Below, one piece after another: positions 286-15,938 of a DNA stretch of 18,277 nucleotides; positions within the stretch are counted from its first letter, which is position 1, and each line of letters starts with the position of its first letter. The notes under the pieces are model-generated. The model made no database searches. It was not told the origin of the DNA and saw only the letters and a program-made list of their open reading frames with translations. The DNA lies in contig JALGZO010000693.1 in the NCBI GenBank assembly GCA_025774865.1, positions 1-18,277 of the forward strand, in the 5' to 3' direction. Source of the DNA: a bacterium (GTDB taxonomy: Bacteria; ARS69). Made by a program: the position numbers and the translations under genes.

Positions 286-3200
286 ATGAGAGGTTCATTG
301 GAGATCATGGTCGAGCCCGAGGGGGGAACCGGCCCGTCGTTCGAGGAAGACCTCGCGTACCTCCTGCTGTTCAGCGAGGCGCTCCTCGACCTTGTCCCCG
401 ACGGCGTCGCGGTGCTCGACGATCGCCTGCGCGTTCGCAACGCGAACCGCGCTTTCGTGAAATTGCTCGGGCTCGGCACGATCGAGGCGGCGCGTGGTGT
501 CTGTCTGAGCGACGAGCCACTCTTTCGCGCGACCGTCTTCGAGCGCGAGGATCGGCCGCTCGGCGACGTGCTCGCCGCGAGCTTCGAGTCGGATATCGGT
601 CTTACCGTCGAAGTCCCGGTTCCCGACGGGGTGCGTTCCGCGCAGACGTGGTCCGTACGCGCCGCCCCGTGGGACACGGAACATCCGAGCTTCCGGCGCA
701 TTCTGCTTTGCGTCAGACGCTCGGACCCGGCCGCCCGCATCGCGTCGCCGACCGGAGTCCGGGAGGACGCCGCGCCCCATCCGTTCACGGTCACCGGCTG
801 GACCCAGGAGGTCCTCGAGCTGCTCCCCGTCGGGGTCTGCGTGCTCGACCCGTCGCACCGGGTCCGCGCTCTGAACGGCTGGCTGGAGGGCGTGCTCAGT
901 CGTCCCGTGAGCCTGGAGGACTGTGCCGACCGTCACCTCTTCGCGCTGTTCCCCGAACTGCGGAGTCAGGAGCTCACGGATCTCCTCGGCGAAGCCCGAC
1001 ACCGACCGGACTGGGTCCAGTCCCCGGTTCCCGTGGTGTCCGCGTCAGGCGCCGATCTGACCCTCGACGCGCAAGTCCGCGCGTTCATCGCTGGTGACGG
1101 CGAGGTGTCGGAGATCCTCGTCATCTTTCGCGACGGAGCACGGGCGTCTCTTCTTGAGCCGTCGGAGCCTCCACCGCCGGACGCCCCACCTCCGCCCGGC
1201 GGAGGCGATGCGGGCTGGGAGGGCCCACCGGGCTCGGGCGGCGGCGGCGGTCCGGGCGACGAATACCCTGAGCCGCCCTCGGGCTGGGAACCTCCCGACG
1301 AAGGAAACGTGCCGGTTCGACCCGAGGACATCGTGGCGCCGGGCAACCTCAGTCGGTTTCCGCACGCAGCGACGAGCCGCATCCTGATCGTCGAGGCGGA
1401 TCCGTGGACCCGCATGGTCATCTCCGTCTCGCTCCGGCAGGCGGGCTTCGAGGATCTGAGTCTCGCGGAGACTCGAGCGGCGGCGCTCGAGACCCTCGAT
1501 CCGGCCGCGCTCGCGCTCATGATCGTGGGATGGGACCGTGATCCGGAGGACGCCCGGGACTTTTGTCTCCGGGTGGCCGGAACCGCGCCCGGCGTCCCCA
1601 TTCTCGGCGTGACCGAACACGGTCCCGACGAGGCGCGAGAGTTTGGCCGGGGGCTTCCGCTGCTCGGATTCCTCCCCGGTCCCGTGCTGAGCGACGATCT
1701 CCGACAGGTCGTCGCGGGTGTCCTGCGGACTCCCGAGCCCGCCGAACCCAGCGAGCCGGTTCGTCGCCCGCCGCGGACCCTCAGTCTCGTGATCCTCGGG
1801 GCCGGGAAGGACGAAGTCTCCGTGTTGCGGCACTTGTACCGCGTGCAGAGGATCGACATTCGGATGGTGTGGGACTCCGACCCCGACGCATTCGGGATCT
1901 CGCTCGCGAAGAACCTCGGTATTCCCACGATCACCGGCGGCTTGACGCTGGGACTGGAGTCGCCGCCCGACGCCGTCGTCCTCGCCCGCGACGGCTTGGA
2001 GCCCCGTCTCACCAACCTGGGTCTCGATACCTGCCCCCGGATCACCCGTGGCGAATTGGAGTTGTTTCTTGTGGATCCCGAATCGTTCCTGGGAACCGAG
2101 CGGGGTTCGGAGCCGGTGAGCGGTCCCGAGTCTTCCCCGACCATGCAGGCCGCTGCCGCGCCGACGTACACCCCCGAGCCCGAGCCTCCGGCGCCCCTTC
2201 CGGCGAGGGAGCCGGCCCGGGAGACGCCGACGCCGATGGCCGTGGACGAACTGGTGGCCGGAGCCCCCGAGATGAACGCGCTCCTCGGGGCTCTGGACCT
2301 TCTGATGGACTTCGAGCGCCTCTGCGCGCGGGTCGTCGAGATCGCGATCGAGTCGGTCGACGGCAGCTCCGGCAGCCTCATGCTCGTGAGCGAGAACGGC
2401 CGGTATCTGCGCATCGCGGCGTCATCGGGCCTGTCGGAAATGGTCGTGCGGAACACGCGAGTGCCGCTCGGCGAGGGGGTCGCCGGGAGTGTGGCCGAGC
2501 AGGGGATGCCGCTCCTTCTCACCGGAGCGCTCGGCGAGGACGACTTCTTCCCGGGCAAAGAGAAACGACCGGAGATCGTTTCCGCGCTCACGATACCGGT
2601 CTTCGCGGACCAGCGAATCATCGGCGTGATCAACGTGAACGCGCGACCCGCGGGACCACCGTTCGACGAAGATCACCTCTCGCGACTGTCGGAACTCGGC
2701 CAGCGCGTCGGCGACGCCCTCGAGCGATCCCGCCAGCTTCGGTTGATGCGCGGGCGTACCTTCGAGACGTCGGTCCGCGCCGAGATCGAGTCGCTCGCGG
2801 CGACGGGCGACGATCTTTTGAGCCGGTTCCGGCGCATCGCGAGCCGCGTGGTGGATCTGCTCGAAGTGGACACTTGCGTCATCTACCTGTACGACGTGAA
2901 GCGCCGGGAGCTCTCGATGCACGCGGTCGCCGGGATCTCGACCGCCTCGATGGACGCGGTCACCGTGCCTGTCGACACCGGGCTCGCGGGCTGGGTGGCC
3001 GGGAATCTCCGGCCGCTCCTGCTCCAGAGCGCTCCCGGGTTCGCGCCGGGTCATGACGTGCCGTTCGCCCTGGCCGTCCCCATCCGCTATCAGACCGAGT
3101 TCGTGGGCGTGCTATCGGTCGAATGCACCCGCGGCGCCGCCGCCGACGAGGAGCGGGTCCCCATCTTCGAAGTGGTCGCATCCGTGATCGGCCAGGCGAT

Positions 3201-3783
3201 CGGCGAGTCGCGGGACCGCGTGGATTCCGAGAGGAAGATGACGATGCTGTCCGCTCTCAGCGAGCTGGGGCCGGCGTTCGCCTCGACGTTGGAGCGCGGG
3301 AGCCTCGCCCGACTCGTCACGTTCTCGGCCACCACGCTGCTCGGATCCGACGTGTCGACGATTCGACTACTCGTTCCCGGAGGCACCCCCGGTGCGACCG
3401 ATTTGGGCGCGTACGAACTGCTCGCGGCGCACGGGGCTTCGGCGGGTCCGAACGAACCGATCGGGGAGCTCGAGCAGAGAATCGCGCGAGAGGTCATCGC
3501 GACGAACCGAACCGTTCGCGAGAGCAATCTACGCGAAGTAGAGATCGAGCCTTTCCTCACGCGTTCCAACGTCGCAGCCGCCCTCGGCGTGCCGATGCTC
3601 ACAGAAGACAGGCTGGTCGGCGTGCTGATGTTCTTCCGCGTCAAGGACTCGAAGGGCCGCGATGTCCGGTTTCGCGAATCGGAGATCGAGATCGGAACGC
3701 GGCTCGGCGACTATGCCGCCGCCGCCGCCACGAGATTCGTCTTCTTGGACCGGGGTCGAACGCCGGCGGAGGGTGGGGCTTAG
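286..3783 (+). CDS. Multidomain PAS/pseudoreceiver/Rossmann/GAF sensor protein without a kinase domain
   Basis: A 1165-residue cytoplasmic sensor; no signal peptide or membrane segment is seen. Approximate domains: PAS-like 26-145 and PAS-like 172-284 (each starting with a LVPDGVAVLD / LLPVGVCVLD pattern); Pro/Gly-rich linker 285-355; receiver-like 364-480; Rossmann-like 494-600 with LVILGAGK; Pro-rich linker 602-648; three GAF domains at 666-818, 828-980 and 985-1158. The receiver looks degenerate: the acidic pair reads EAD, the phospho-acceptor strand is LMIVGWD, and the conserved KP lysine is missing (FLPGP). There is no HisKA, HATPase, GGDEF, EAL, phosphatase or DNA-binding domain. ATG 286 has GGGA six bases upstream; ATG 307 has GGAG only three bases away. 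In-frame sequence back to 40 runs through hairpins and is not counted as coding. The next gene follows after three bases, suggesting a shared mRNA. The ligand is unknown. Confidence 0.85.
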   Translation: MRGSLEIMVEPEGGTGPSFEEDLAYLLLFSEALLDLVPDGVAVLDDRLRVRNANRAFVKLLGLGTIEAARGVCLSDEPLFRATVFEREDRPLGDVLAASFESDIGLTVEVPVPDGVRSAQTWSVRAAPWDTEHPSFRRILLCVRRSDPAARIASPTGVREDAAPHPFTVTGWTQEVLELLPVGVCVLDPSHRVRALNGWLEGVLSRPVSLEDCADRHLFALFPELRSQELTDLLGEARHRPDWVQSPVPVVSASGADLTLDAQVRAFIAGDGEVSEILVIFRDGARASLLEPSEPPPPDAPPPPGGGDAGWEGPPGSGGGGGPGDEYPEPPSGWEPPDEGNVPVRPEDIVAPGNLSRFPHAATSRILIVEADPWTRMVISVSLRQAGFEDLSLAETRAAALETLDPAALALMIVGWDRDPEDARDFCLRVAGTAPGVPILGVTEHGPDEAREFGRGLPLLGFLPGPVLSDDLRQVVAGVLRTPEPAEPSEPVRRPPRTLSLVILGAGKDEVSVLRHLYRVQRIDIRMVWDSDPDAFGISLAKNLGIPTITGGLTLGLESPPDAVVLARDGLEPRLTNLGLDTCPRITRGELELFLVDPESFLGTERGSEPVSGPESSPTMQAAAAPTYTPEPEPPAPLPAREPARETPTPMAVDELVAGAPEMNALLGALDLLMDFERLCARVVEIAIESVDGSSGSLMLVSENGRYLRIAASSGLSEMVVRNTRVPLGEGVAGSVAEQGMPLLLTGALGEDDFFPGKEKRPEIVSALTIPVFADQRIIGVINVNARPAGPPFDEDHLSRLSELGQRVGDALERSRQLRLMRGRTFETSVRAEIESLAATGDDLLSRFRRIASRVVDLLEVDTCVIYLYDVKRRELSMHAVAGISTASMDAVTVPVDTGLAGWVAGNLRPLLLQSAPGFAPGHDVPFALAVPIRYQTEFVGVLSVECTRGAAADEERVPIFEVVASVIGQAIGESRDRVDSERKMTMLSALSELGPAFASTLERGSLARLVTFSATTLLGSDVSTIRLLVPGGTPGATDLGAYELLAAHGASAGPNEPIGELEQRIAREVIATNRTVRESNLREVEIEPFLTRSNVAAALGVPMLTEDRLVGVLMFFRVKDSKGRDVRFRESEIEIGTRLGDYAAAAATRFVFLDRGRTPAEGGA

Positions 3784-3786
3784 CGA

Positions 3787-4176
3787 ATGGAACCGACACT
3801 GCAGAAGATCGAGAGACTCATCGCCGAGATCGGGGGGGCTCCGCTGGACGACGAGGCCACCCTCGCCCGCGTGCAGCGGGCGCTGACCGAGGTCGGCACG
3901 CGGCTTCGTGAGCGCGCCCGGGAGGCGCCGAACGACCTCCCACCGCCCGGTCCCCCCCTCGATCGTGCGGACCGTCTGGCCGACGAAGCCAAGCGGATCG
4001 GTCACGACCTCAACAACTGCCTCGGGGTGGTGGGGGGGCGGACCGAGCTACTGTCGATCTACCTCGACCGGGGCAAGGTCGACGACATGAAACGAGGGAT
4101 CGACGTGATCATGGGACAGCTGGAGAGGATGAAAGAACTGTCGGATGAGCTTCGAGGCCTGCGGCAGTTGGCTTGA
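3787..4176 (+). CDS. Stand-alone histidine-kinase H-box (DHp-like) protein
   Basis: A 129-residue protein. The N-terminal half (1-45) is charged and helical, followed by a Pro-rich link (47-60) and a second helical region. Residues 71-89 read IGHDLNNCLGVVGGRTELL. This matches the H-box of histidine kinases of the HDxNN-L type, with H73 as the expected phospho-histidine. A second helix (100-125) completes a two-helix DHp-like unit. The protein stops there, with no N, G1, F or G2 box, so no ATP-binding catalytic domain is present. It starts three bases after the sensor stop; GGAGG in the sensor's last codons can serve as ribosome site. Known biology: DHp domains dimerise and receive phosphate from a HATPase domain. 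Inference: this is a phosphotransfer or dimerisation partner of the sensor, relying on an ATPase elsewhere or not phosphorylated at all. Confidence 0.75.
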   Translation: MEPTLQKIERLIAEIGGAPLDDEATLARVQRALTEVGTRLRERAREAPNDLPPPGPPLDRADRLADEAKRIGHDLNNCLGVVGGRTELLSIYLDRGKVDDMKRGIDVIMGQLERMKELSDELRGLRQLA

Positions 4177-4296: not shown

Positions 4297-5307
4297 ATGC
4301 CTGTGAAGATCGGAATCAACGGCTTCGGACGCATCGGACGGATATTCTTCCGGGCCCTGAGGAGCAACCCGGACGTGGAAGTCGTCGCGGTGAACGACAT
4401 CACCGACCCTAAGACCCTGGCCCACCTCCTCAAGTACGACTCGGTGCACGGTCGGCTCCCCGAGGATGTGGTGGCGGTGAGCGACGGCGTTCAGGTCGGC
4501 GGAAGACTGCTGAAGGTCCTGTCGGAGCGTGATCCGGCCAACCTGCCGTGGGGGGACCTCGGCGTCGAGGTCGTGTGCGAGTCCACCGGCATCTTCAGCA
4601 AGCGCGCAGACGCCGCCAAACACATCCAGGCCGGGGCCCGCAAGGTCGTGATCTCGGCACCTTCGAAGGACGCGGACGTCACCGTCGTGCTCGGCGTCAA
4701 CTCGGACGCGTACGATCCAGACCAGCACGACGTTATCTCGATCGCGAGTTGCACGACGAACTGTCTCGCTCCCGTCGCAAAGGTGCTCAACGACGAGTTC
4801 GGGATCGAGAAGGGGCTGATGACCACGATCCACGCCTACACGAACGATCAGCGCATTCTCGATCTGCCGCACAAGGATCTGCGGCGCGCGCGCGCCGCCG
4901 GTGTCAGCATGATCCCCACGACGACCGGCGCCGCGCAGGCCGTGGCGGTCGCACTGCCGGAGCTGAAGGGTCGGCTCACGGGAATGGCCATTCGCGTCCC
5001 GGTTCCCGACGGCTCGGTGGTCGACTTTCAGGCGGTATTGTCGCGCGACACTTCCATCGACGACGTGAACGCGGCGGTCAAGAAGGCGGCTGACGGGAAT
5101 CTCCGGGGCGTGCTCGAGTACTCCGAGGATCCGCTGGTCTCGGTGGACATCATCGGCAACCCGCACAGCTCCATCTTCGACGCGCTGTCCACGAACGTCA
5201 TCGGGGGCAACCTCGTCAAGGTGCTCAGCTGGTACGACAACGAGTGGGGTTACTCGAACCGCCTGGCGGAGATGGTCACCCACGTTGCGAGGCAGCCGGT
5301 CGCCTAG
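4297..5307 (+). CDS. gap: Glyceraldehyde-3-phosphate dehydrogenase, NAD-type
   Basis: 336 residues, normal for the family. It catalyses reversible oxidative phosphorylation of glyceraldehyde-3-phosphate to 1,3-bisphosphoglycerate in the cytosol. Seen: Rossmann start INGFGRIGR (7-15), N33-D34 at the adenine-ribose position, catalytic SCTTNC with C152, H179 in [22 protein letters not shown] (188-199), and the C-terminal [11 protein letters not shown]. The Asp after strand 2 and the LP dipeptide before HKD fit an NAD-dependent GapA rather than an NADP-type GapB. ATG 4297 is chosen over ATG 4288 because AGGGAGG (4281-4287) is nine bases before 4297 but abuts 4288, and MPVKIGING is the usual family start. 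First gene of gap-pgk-tpiA-secG. Confidence 0.97.
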
Positions 5308-7747: not shown

Positions 7748-7832
7748 GCCCGGGTGGTGAAACTGGTAAACACGCACGGTTGAGGGCCGTGTGGGGCAAC
7801 CCTTGCGGGTTCGAATCCCGCCTCGGGCACCA
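7748..7832 (+). tRNA. tRNA-Leu (anticodon GAG)
   Basis: 85 bases including an encoded CCA. Acceptor GCCCGGG (7748-7754) pairs with CTCGGGC (7822-7828) with one G-U pair; the discriminator is A7829 and CCA is 7830-7832. Anticodon stem CACGG/CCGTG encloses loop TTGAGGG, giving anticodon GAG at 7782-7784, which reads CUC and CUU. A long variable arm (class II) lies between CCGTG and the T-stem GCGGG/CCCGC with TTCGAAT loop. It starts 17 bases after the secG stop, has no promoter of its own that I can see, and is followed by a terminator, so it is probably processed from the gap-secG transcript. Confidence 0.96.
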
Positions 7833-13469: not shown

Positions 13470-13523
13470 CGAAAAGCCTGTGGGCCCCCCTGGTACATGA
13501 CCTGTCGTGGAAAGGAAGCGGGA

Positions 13524-15938
13524 ATGAGACCGTATTTTCGACTCCTGGGGATTCTGGCGGCGATCGGCGGGGCTGTCCTCGCGACCTCGGTCGGCGTCCA
13601 GGCCGACGGGCATGCTTACAACGTCTCTCTGATCAAGAACGTCAACAGCTATCCCGGGACGAACGACTGCTGGGGGTACACGGCGCCCAGCGGGACCGAG
13701 CTGGCCATTTACGGCCACCGGGTGGGCACGTCCTTCGTCGACGCGACGGATCCACCCAACGCGGTCGAGGTCTTCAACCTGCCCGGCCCCTCCTCCACGT
13801 GGCGGGACATCAAGACGTACCAGGATTACGCTTACATCGTGACGGAAGGATCGGGCGCGGGCACCGGAATGCAGATCGTCGACCTCTCGGATCCTCTGAA
13901 TCCAGTCCACGTCGGTACTTACACGGGCTCGGGCTTCACGACCGCGCACAACATCTGGATCGATACGGGGGCGGGCGTCGCCTACATGTGCGGGGCGAGT
14001 GGCGGCGGCATGAACATCGTGTCCCTCTCCGATCCCGAGAATCCCGTTCAGCTCGATTTCTTCGGTCCGTACTACATTCACGACTTGTACGTCGCCGATG
14101 GGCGGGCCTACGCGGGCGCGATCTCCAGCGGCTCCCTGCGCATCATTGACGTGTCGAACCCGTCGAACCCGTCCACGCTCGCGTCGCACTATTACTCCGG
14201 TGCCGCGACGCACAATTCGTGGCCGACTTCGTCGGGGACGCATTGCATCACCACCGATGAAGTCTCCGGCGGTCACCTCAAGGTCTGGGACATCAGCAAC
14301 CTGTCGAACATCCAGTTCGCGTCATCCTACATCGTGACGCGGCAGAACGCGATCATTCACAACGGCCTGATCCGCGACGACATGGCGTACATCGCTTACT
14401 ACGCGGCGGGCACGCAGATCGTGGACCTGACCGATCCTACGAATCCGGTCGAAGTGGGGTTCTACGACACGTCGACCCGAAGCGGCGGCTTCGATGGCAA
14501 CTGGGGCGTCTATCCCTTCCGCGACGACGACATCTTCTACTCCAGCGACCGTCAGGAGGGACTCTTCATTCTCGAGTTCACCGGCGGGTTCGCCGGGCAG
14601 ATTTCGGGGACGGTACGGAACCTCGACACGGCCGAGCCACTGGACGACGCATACATCAAGGTGCACCCGAGTCTGACGCTGGAGTCCTCGGGGCTCGGAG
14701 CCTACAGCGGTTACACGTCGGGAGGGACGTACGATGTCGTGACCGAGCGGTTCGGCTACGTGCCGGACACGACGACGGTCACGATCCCCGAGCACGGATC
14801 CGTCGTTCACGACGTGGACCTCGTCCAGTTGCCGTTCGGCGCCGTCGAGCTCGAGCTCTTGGTTGCGAACACCACCACTCCGATCGTCGGAGCGAGGGTC
14901 GGGGTGGCCGACACTCCGTTGCAGGGGCTCGTGTCGGACACGAACGGGAAGGTGCTCATCCCCGGCCTGCCGGTTGGATTGCCGTGGGTCGCCACGATCG
15001 GAAAGTTCGGGCGGAAGCTCAGCGACGTCACCGTGACCTCGAGCGAAGGAAGCACGACGACGGTATCGGTCGAGGTGGCACCGGGATTCGCGGATGATTT
15101 CGACTTCGATCAGGCGTGGATCGTGGGGGCGGGTGACGACGATGCCACGGACGGGATTTGGGAGCGTGCGATTCCGGTCGGGAGCTACTTCATCGGCGTC
15201 GTCGGGCCGGAAGAGGACGCGTCACCGACGGGAGAGGGGTACGCGTACGTCACCGAACGGCATGTGCCAGGTGCGTTCGTCGGGACCTCCGACGTGGACG
15301 ACGGCAAGACCACCCTGATCTCACCCGTGTTCGACGGAACGGGCCTCGGAACCCTCACGCTGACCTATCAAAGATGGTTCTCGAACCGCGCCCCGTCGCA
15401 GAGCGACGACGAGTTTCGGGCCGACGTGAGCACCGACGGGGGCGCTTCCTGGACGAACCTCGAGACGATCGCGCTCGGTTACGACGCGTGGGCGCTGGCG
15501 TCGATCGAGCTCAACGCGCTCATCCCCATCACGGATGAGATGCAGGTCCGCTTCGTCGCTGAGGATCTCGGATCGAACACGTACGTCGAAGCAGGTATCG
15601 ACGACGTCGCCATCTTCTCCACGGTGACCGATGCTCCGCGCGTCGAGGAAACGGCCTCACGGCTCGACTTCGCATCGCCGGTGCCGAATCCGTTCCGGGA
15701 CGCCACGCGGCTCTCGTTCGAGCTCCCCATCTCCGGACCCGCGGAGGTCTCGATCTTCGACATCGGCGGCCGGCGGGTAGTGACGTTGCTGCGCGGTGAT
15801 CGGGTGGCGGCGGGTGCCCATCGAGTCAGCTGGGACGGGCGCGACTCCGACGGGCGGAACGTCGCGACGGGCATCTACTTCGCGAAGCTCGTGACGCAAG
15901 ACGGCGCGATGTCCCGAAAGGTCACGCTGATGCGCTGA
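13524..15938 (+). CDS. Secreted choice-of-anchor B (LVIVD-repeat) protein with C-terminal sorting domain
   Basis: 804 residues. A Sec signal peptide (1-29, MRPYFRLLGILAAIGGAVLA..., likely cut after VQA) is followed by an LVIVD-repeat region (26-352) with the wording of choice-of-anchor B proteins. Next come a carboxypeptidase-regulatory-like beta sandwich (359-433), a second Ig-like/regulatory domain (438-522), and a MAM/immune-inhibitor-like jelly roll (524-702, DFDFDQAWIVG...). The C-terminal module (714-804) has NPFRDATRLSFELP, FDIGGRRV, G-H-VSWDGRDSDGRNVATGIYF and KVTLMR. It matches FlgD-Ig-like/type IX-secretion type A sorting domains. ATG 13524 has AAGGAAG upstream and opens the signal peptide; in-frame ATG 13497 would bury it. 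The protein is exported or surface-anchored; ligand and activity are unknown. Confidence 0.85.
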   Translation: MRPYFRLLGILAAIGGAVLATSVGVQADGHAYNVSLIKNVNSYPGTNDCWGYTAPSGTELAIYGHRVGTSFVDATDPPNAVEVFNLPGPSSTWRDIKTYQDYAYIVTEGSGAGTGMQIVDLSDPLNPVHVGTYTGSGFTTAHNIWIDTGAGVAYMCGASGGGMNIVSLSDPENPVQLDFFGPYYIHDLYVADGRAYAGAISSGSLRIIDVSNPSNPSTLASHYYSGAATHNSWPTSSGTHCITTDEVSGGHLKVWDISNLSNIQFASSYIVTRQNAIIHNGLIRDDMAYIAYYAAGTQIVDLTDPTNPVEVGFYDTSTRSGGFDGNWGVYPFRDDDIFYSSDRQEGLFILEFTGGFAGQISGTVRNLDTAEPLDDAYIKVHPSLTLESSGLGAYSGYTSGGTYDVVTERFGYVPDTTTVTIPEHGSVVHDVDLVQLPFGAVELELLVANTTTPIVGARVGVADTPLQGLVSDTNGKVLIPGLPVGLPWVATIGKFGRKLSDVTVTSSEGSTTTVSVEVAPGFADDFDFDQAWIVGAGDDDATDGIWERAIPVGSYFIGVVGPEEDASPTGEGYAYVTERHVPGAFVGTSDVDDGKTTLISPVFDGTGLGTLTLTYQRWFSNRAPSQSDDEFRADVSTDGGASWTNLETIALGYDAWALASIELNALIPITDEMQVRFVAEDLGSNTYVEAGIDDVAIFSTVTDAPRVEETASRLDFASPVPNPFRDATRLSFELPISGPAEVSIFDIGGRRVVTLLRGDRVAAGAHRVSWDGRDSDGRNVATGIYFAKLVTQDGAMSRKVTLMR
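13728..14465 (+). repeat. Six LVIVD-type repeats in the secreted protein
   Basis: Six copies of a pattern near hydrophobic-x-[IV]-V-D-[LA]-[ST]-D-P-x-N-P-V begin at about 13728, 13869, 14010, 14136, 14277 and 14412, spaced 42 to 47 codons apart. The best copies read IVDLSDPLNPVHVG and IVDLTDPTNPVEVG; the fifth (VWDISNLSNIQ) is most diverged. The regular spacing fits one beta-propeller blade per repeat. Confidence 0.75.

Follow-up and report, generated by a model that had tools for sequence, protein, structure and literature searches.

HisKA proteins without a HATPase domain are a described class amounting to a few per cent of all HisKA proteins (1556 of 42417, or 3.66%), of which 711 carry the phosphatase motif HE/DxxN/T and have been termed 'potentially split bifunctional kinases' (Amin, Porter and Soyer 2013, PMC3591291). 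Taken by themselves, the dimerisation and histidine phosphotransfer (DHp) domains of EnvZ and NtrB can remove phosphate from OmpR and NtrC respectively, less actively than when the ATPase domain is present, and in CrdS the kinase but not the phosphatase activity requires the acidic residue beside the histidine, the converse being true of the asparagine at position +4 (PMC3510030). The phosphotransferase ChpT has no autokinase activity and retains an atypical Bergerat-fold domain (PMC3433190). Here we describe a gene coding for a DHp domain and little else, situated directly behind a gene for a large sensor without an output domain, and upstream of the glycolytic gene gapA, in an 18,277-nucleotide contig (JALGZO010000693.1; 'the window' hereafter means this whole stretch) from an uncultured bacterium of the GTDB lineage ARS69. 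The arrangement is real, conserved and unusual, a rare variation on a theme already described. Our preferred but tentative reading, with a probability of roughly 0.42, is that this free-standing HisKA-type DHp may be a sensor-gated, ATP-independent phosphatase or phosphotransfer module for a distant response regulator.

The DHp-only protein and its locus

Five genomes make up our phylum sample: G000, the draft to which the window belongs as contig 697 (4.7 Mb, 785 contigs, 92.65% complete); G004, a draft metagenome-assembled genome from a second genus (JALGZR01, isolate M3-44_Bin_119, 96% complete); the complete genome G001 (100% completeness), which served as the third genome compared; and G002 and G003 (82% and 67% complete). 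The DHp gene and its features in the window are as follows.

3787-4176, + strand: DHp-only (H-box) protein of 129 residues (open reading frame, Pfam, homology)
3961-4170, + strand: DHp hairpin, helix 59-95 plus helix 98-128 (AlphaFold pLDDT about 80-92; alignment with complete kinases)
4003-4005, 4006-4008 and 4015-4017, + strand: codons of H73, D74 and N77, within IGHDLNN

The stop codon of the sensor and the ATG of the DHp gene (3787) are separated by three bases (CGA), and a plausible GGAGG precedes the start codon. A preliminary description, made from the sequence alone, held that the gene encodes only a DHp-like segment, with H73 in IGHDLNN and no ATP-binding domain, and both the reading frames and Pfam bear this out: scanned at E<=1, neither the sensor nor the small protein gives a HATPase match, and nor does the G004 copy. 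The H-E/D-x-x-N/T motif is present as H73-D74-L75-N76-N77, identically in G004. AlphaFold, run throughout on single chains, models a two-helix antiparallel hairpin with the histidine in helix 1; the protein ends directly after helix 2, with no Bergerat-like C-terminal domain behind the hairpin. The Pfam HisKA match (E 0.0019, 18.6 bits; 21.4 bits in the G004 copy) lies below the curated cut-off of 26.9, as do those of two complete kinases that possess a HATPase domain, C565 (18.0 bits) and G004:C67 (18.7 bits). We class the small protein, on pairwise homology and not as a Pfam member, as a HisKA-like DHp. Beyond its own kind, it aligns best with DHps that belong to complete kinases (G000:C565, E 1.3e-8; G001:C6, E 1.7e-8; G002:C295; G004:C67) that share the motif GHELNNYL..IGGRA(E/D)L, and the alignment to these spans the full hairpin, with H73, the acid at D74 and N77 all matching. 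Foldseek matches of the hairpin include T. maritima HK853 (26-28% identity, 2-3 A root-mean-square deviation), a comparison that is not diagnostic since many unrelated coiled hairpins score equally well. The kinase closest by its DHp, C565 (L112:3-1925, - strand), has the order REC-PAS-HisKA-HATPase (REC, receiver); its counterparts have HAMP-PAS-type fronts in G001, in G004 and, as judged by reading, in G002.

A conserved gene pair, which the preliminary description proposed to look for, is found in G004 (contig JALGZR010000005), where a sensor of 1293 residues, an HDOD protein of 294, a DHp protein of 89, gapA and pgk follow one another, with aminotransferase and acetyltransferase genes further downstream as in the window. 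The two DHps are 60-62% identical (E 4e-21; 62% over 58 residues) and H73, D74 and N77 are invariant. Nothing is fused behind the G004 hairpin, so that a homologue joined to an ATPase, which would have made the window copy a mere truncation, is not seen at this locus. Differences between the two genes by codon position (0.29/0.16/0.52) are as expected under purifying selection at the protein level. The N-terminal 60 residues of the window protein are unconserved and missing in G004; they appear dispensable, because the G004 protein consists of little beyond the hairpin. The HDOD gene (L045:9043-9924, E 1.4e-53) lies between sensor and DHp gene, its start codon directly after the sensor stop. 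In the window, sensor and DHp gene share one frame across TAG CGA (3781-3789), such that readthrough would fuse the third GAF domain of the sensor to the DHp; no sign of readthrough was seen, and the intervening HDOD gene in G004 led us to reject such a fusion as a conserved feature.

The complete genome G001 presents a different picture. Its sensor, of 666 residues (PAS-Rossmann-GAF-GAF), is without the pseudo-receiver, second PAS and third GAF domains, and the approximately 130 nucleotides between this sensor and gapA contain neither a DHp nor an HDOD gene; the best match to the DHp elsewhere in the genome is a complete kinase. Because this shorter sensor stands directly before gapA with no DHp gene, the DHp gene is an accessory, and it accompanies the longer form (n=2 vs 1). 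Neither the sensor nor the corresponding gapA was found in G002 and G003, which are therefore uninformative here. Scanning 84,980 species genomes with the query P0002, which reaches close relatives only, returned the G004 locus as the sole match; two additional phylum searches added nothing, and in 386 wider genomes (the L061 frame aside) the matches outside the family were complete kinases, with a single REC-DHp protein as the exception. This protein (L057:1393-2136, - strand, 248 residues, genome G197 of another phylum) joins an intact receiver to a HisKA DHp and has no ATPase domain, evidence that DHps without an ATPase have also come about in other settings; four further genomes of that phylum gave no such protein.

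The sensor and its surroundings

The sensor and its domains, together with the gene that follows the DHp gene, are listed below.

286-3783, + strand: sensor gene, 1165 residues, PAS-PAS-pseudoREC-Rossmann-GAF-GAF-GAF, without an output domain (open reading frame and Pfam); stop codon TAG, 3781-3783
385-681, + strand: PAS domain 1, residues 34-132 (Pfam PAS_4)
805-1134, + strand: PAS domain 2, residues 174-283 (Pfam PAS)
1381-1713, + strand: putative pseudo-receiver, residues 366-476 (weak Response_reg match in the window; 2e-8 in G004)
1774-2100, + strand: Rossmann-type domain, residues about 497-605 (homology to N-terminal Rossmann domains of signalling proteins in other phyla)
2308-2724, + strand: GAF domain 1, residues 675-813 (Pfam)
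2806-3201, + strand: GAF domain 2, residues 841-972 (Pfam)
3283-3735, + strand, limits approximate: GAF domain 3, residues about 1000-1150 (third GAF stretch in the window and G004, by alignment; missing from the G001 sensor)
4297-5307, + strand: gapA (glyceraldehyde-3-phosphate dehydrogenase), first gene of its cluster (same gene order in G001 and G004)

Translation of the sensor more likely begins at ATG 307 (1158 residues) than at ATG 286, since the G004 homologue begins there (MVESEEG / MVEPEGG). That the 1165-residue frame has no output domain, as first proposed, agrees with Pfam, which gives only PAS, weak Response_reg and GAF matches. The domain list offered at that stage, PAS and GAF, omitted the pseudo-receiver and the Rossmann-type domain. 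A hidden output domain was considered and rejected: all folded stretches are PAS, REC-like, Rossmann or GAF, and the remainder is mostly Pro/Gly-rich linker. As judged from its domains, then, the sensor stacks input modules that carry outputs elsewhere and is itself without one.

With residue positions that we take to correspond to those of CheY, the receiver-like domain has glycine in place of the phosphoacceptor aspartate in both the window and G004 (MIVGWDRD / MLVGFDRD, aligned), glycine in place of the conserved lysine in both genera (LPGP / LAGP), and has lost one residue of the acidic pair in both (EAD / EPD). Residues 366-476 are accordingly read as a pseudo-receiver, which would be devoid of the aspartate and lysine of a functional receiver. 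As it offers no phosphoacceptor, the phosphate substrate must lie elsewhere.

The conserved stretch between receiver and GAF domain 1 has no Pfam name in the sensor. A profile of this region built from three genomes matches sigma54 activators with an N-terminal Rossmann domain (L118, L122, L124), GAF-GGDEF proteins (L119, L121) and a kinase (L125), all from other phyla, with E values of 4e-4 to 7e-8 per genome for L118, L119, L121, L122 and L125; the matched stretches score in Pfam as the NAD-binding GFO_IDH_MocA fold. The dinucleotide-binding glycine motif is not kept: the window has GAGKDE, as against GAGDNE in G001 and GAEERD in G004. The AlphaFold model of the pseudo-REC/Rossmann part is of low confidence (mean pLDDT 57); strands and helices alternate as expected in its pseudo-REC half, and its Rossmann half is unreliable. 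In several phyla, a sensory Rossmann domain without a Pfam family of its own stands ahead of modules of the sigma54, GAF-GGDEF or kinase type.

Downstream of the DHp gene the window carries a gapA-pgk-tpiA-secG cluster, and this neighbourhood, together with the Rossmann domain, hints at metabolic sensing. A tRNA-Leu (gag) gene lies immediately past secG (7748-7832), and farther along is a secreted repeat protein of 813 residues (13497-15938) with a C-terminal FlgD-like sorting-type domain and repeats that are LVIVD-like by reading of the sequence.

ATPase supply and the weighing of alternatives

Could the ATPase part have been lost to a sequencing error, or be encoded elsewhere? No HATPase domain can be restored by a frameshift before gapA, because the spacer from 4176 to the gapA start (120 nucleotides) is too short for an ATPase domain of approximately 110 residues; a frameshift after 4176, named beforehand as an event that would undo the observation, is thereby excluded, and truncation is rejected on the same distance and on the DHp-only copy in G004. 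Listing HATPase_c matches in G000 gave 45, and those without a nearby HisKA match were read, except for a 29-residue edge fragment on C122. They are complete and HisKA_3-type kinases, GyrB, MutL, CheA, contig-edge pieces and three small RsbW-like proteins (C145, C477, C694), a type that occurs in other genomes of the family too. The small ATPases of G004 are two RsbW-like frames only (165 and 188 residues); a 272-residue frame there (G004:C149), considered as a HisKA-only protein, carries a HATPase domain. No free-standing HATPase_c gene was found in either draft and, as far as draft genomes can tell, nothing supports a dedicated ATPase partner. Any phosphate on H73 would need to derive either from a complete kinase acting in trans or, by reversal, from a phosphorylated regulator; some 30 complete kinases are candidates for the trans role, and the DHp of the closest is of the GHELNN type.

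Because a second genus retains the pair, it probably works as a switch that moves or removes phosphate without consuming ATP itself. By analogy with the DHps of EnvZ and NtrB, the default role of a stand-alone DHp that retains its histidine, acid and asparagine would be that of a phosphatase or a site of phosphate exchange. On our preferred reading the DHp would pair with itself or with the DHp of a kinase to form a four-helix bundle. Its target would be a response regulator whose gene lies outside the locus, and it would serve this regulator mainly as a phosphatase and phosphotransfer site that needs no ATP; binding to the PAS/pseudo-REC/Rossmann/GAF sensor encoded upstream would control its activity. 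The neighbourhood of gapA suggests a link to central carbon metabolism. Several observations weigh against it. The locus contains no response regulator, and the kinase-specific acid D74 is retained, superfluous as it would be for a pure phosphatase. The DHp-only gene is known in two sequences, so conservation rests on one comparison, and both genomes that carry it are draft metagenome-assembled genomes (92.65% and 96% complete), while the complete genome G001 has the sensor and no DHp gene, meaning that the two are not obligate partners. We regard as doubtful the broader proposal of a kinase dismantled three ways into separate sensor, DHp and ATPase supply, with the selected stand-alone DHp as a sensor-gated, ATP-independent phosphatase/phosphotransfer hub (in one genus plus HDOD) tied to the central glycolytic operon.

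D74 is equally the residue to which a different explanation appeals, namely that a complete kinase, likeliest C565, phosphorylates H73 through heterodimers and the phosphate is passed on, making a bipartite kinase without a dedicated ATPase. The corresponding acid in CrdS is needed for kinase activity only (PMC3510030), and both copies retain it; the same genome encodes the best paralogue, a complete REC-PAS-HisKA-HATPase kinase that has a HAMP-PAS counterpart in G004; and there is precedent in that EnvZ works when split and CheA4 phosphorylates CheA3 in trans (PMC3591291). The paralogue is, however, only 34% identical, and the kinase type is also present in G001, which is without the DHp-only gene, and there is no linkage; we consider such trans-phosphorylation possible but on the unlikely side. 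Were the histidine chemistry idle, the DHp could instead be a decoy that binds and blocks a kinase or regulator, with the sensor setting its availability. This would suit the lack of an ATPase and of a linked regulator and the accessory distribution (missing from G001), but a pure decoy has no need of the histidine, acid and asparagine, which are nevertheless invariant in the sole other copy, and we judge it improbable. A related early suggestion, a kinase-dead scaffold, likewise loses ground: a catalytically used DHp appears the likelier, because the histidine, the adjacent acid and the +4 asparagine are all kept.

It was also suggested at the outset that this might be a split kinase with an unlinked third part, its ATPase being a dedicated, free-standing protein whose gene lies at another site. 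The M. tuberculosis Rv0600c/Rv0601c/TcrA system is a precedent. Split kinases as such are treated in PMC3591291, but with RsbW-like proteins as the only small ATPases in G000 and G004, drafts that could hide a free-standing HATPase_c, the suggestion has little going for it here. Slightly less probable again is a decaying remnant of a kinase gene that has lost its ATPase half: the N-terminal 60 residues are not common to both genera and one genome is missing the gene, yet the DHps are 62% identical, differences are in excess at third positions (0.29/0.16/0.52), the catalytic residues are kept across genera and a plausible GGAGG stands ahead of the start codon.

Comparison with described systems

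In the literature searched, from which most subscription journals fell outside coverage, no characterised natural stand-alone DHp gene was found. The preliminary view that the two-gene arrangement has no named precedent therefore stands for the exact gene pair, but not for the wider class of HisKA proteins without HATPase. A minimal DHp of 89-129 residues beside its sensor in two genera would make it possible to test directly if a DHp that occurs in nature functions as a phosphatase or trans-phosphorylated module without an ATPase in cis, and if an output-less sensor is able to drive it.

In M. tuberculosis, the ATPase and histidine parts are on separate, adjacent genes, Rv0600c and Rv0601c, whereas the window DHp has no linked ATPase gene. 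The products of these two genes have been named as kinases cooperating with TcrA (PMC9274095). CheA3 of R. sphaeroides likewise bears a histidine without an ATPase of its own and has phosphatase activity (PMC3591291), but in the CheA3/CheA4 system the domain is of the CheA P1 type and a dedicated ATPase partner exists, in contrast to the HisKA-type domain of the window, for which no partner was found. The phosphotransferases ChpT and Spo0B possess a dimeric DHp-like hairpin with a phosphate-shuttling histidine, which the window hairpin resembles and whose dimerisation it may share; ChpT keeps a Bergerat-fold domain, and the window protein is without one. The potentially split bifunctional kinases (PMC3591291) are likewise HisKA-type, without HATPase and with the phosphatase motif (here HDLNN), differing in that the window protein is a DHp and little else, with its sensor a separate output-less gene before gapA. 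The CrdS-type acid and +4 asparagine are both present in the window DHp, and domain and residues alike are common to the isolated DHps of EnvZ and NtrB; those, however, are laboratory fragments of complete kinases, whereas the window DHp is a natural gene.

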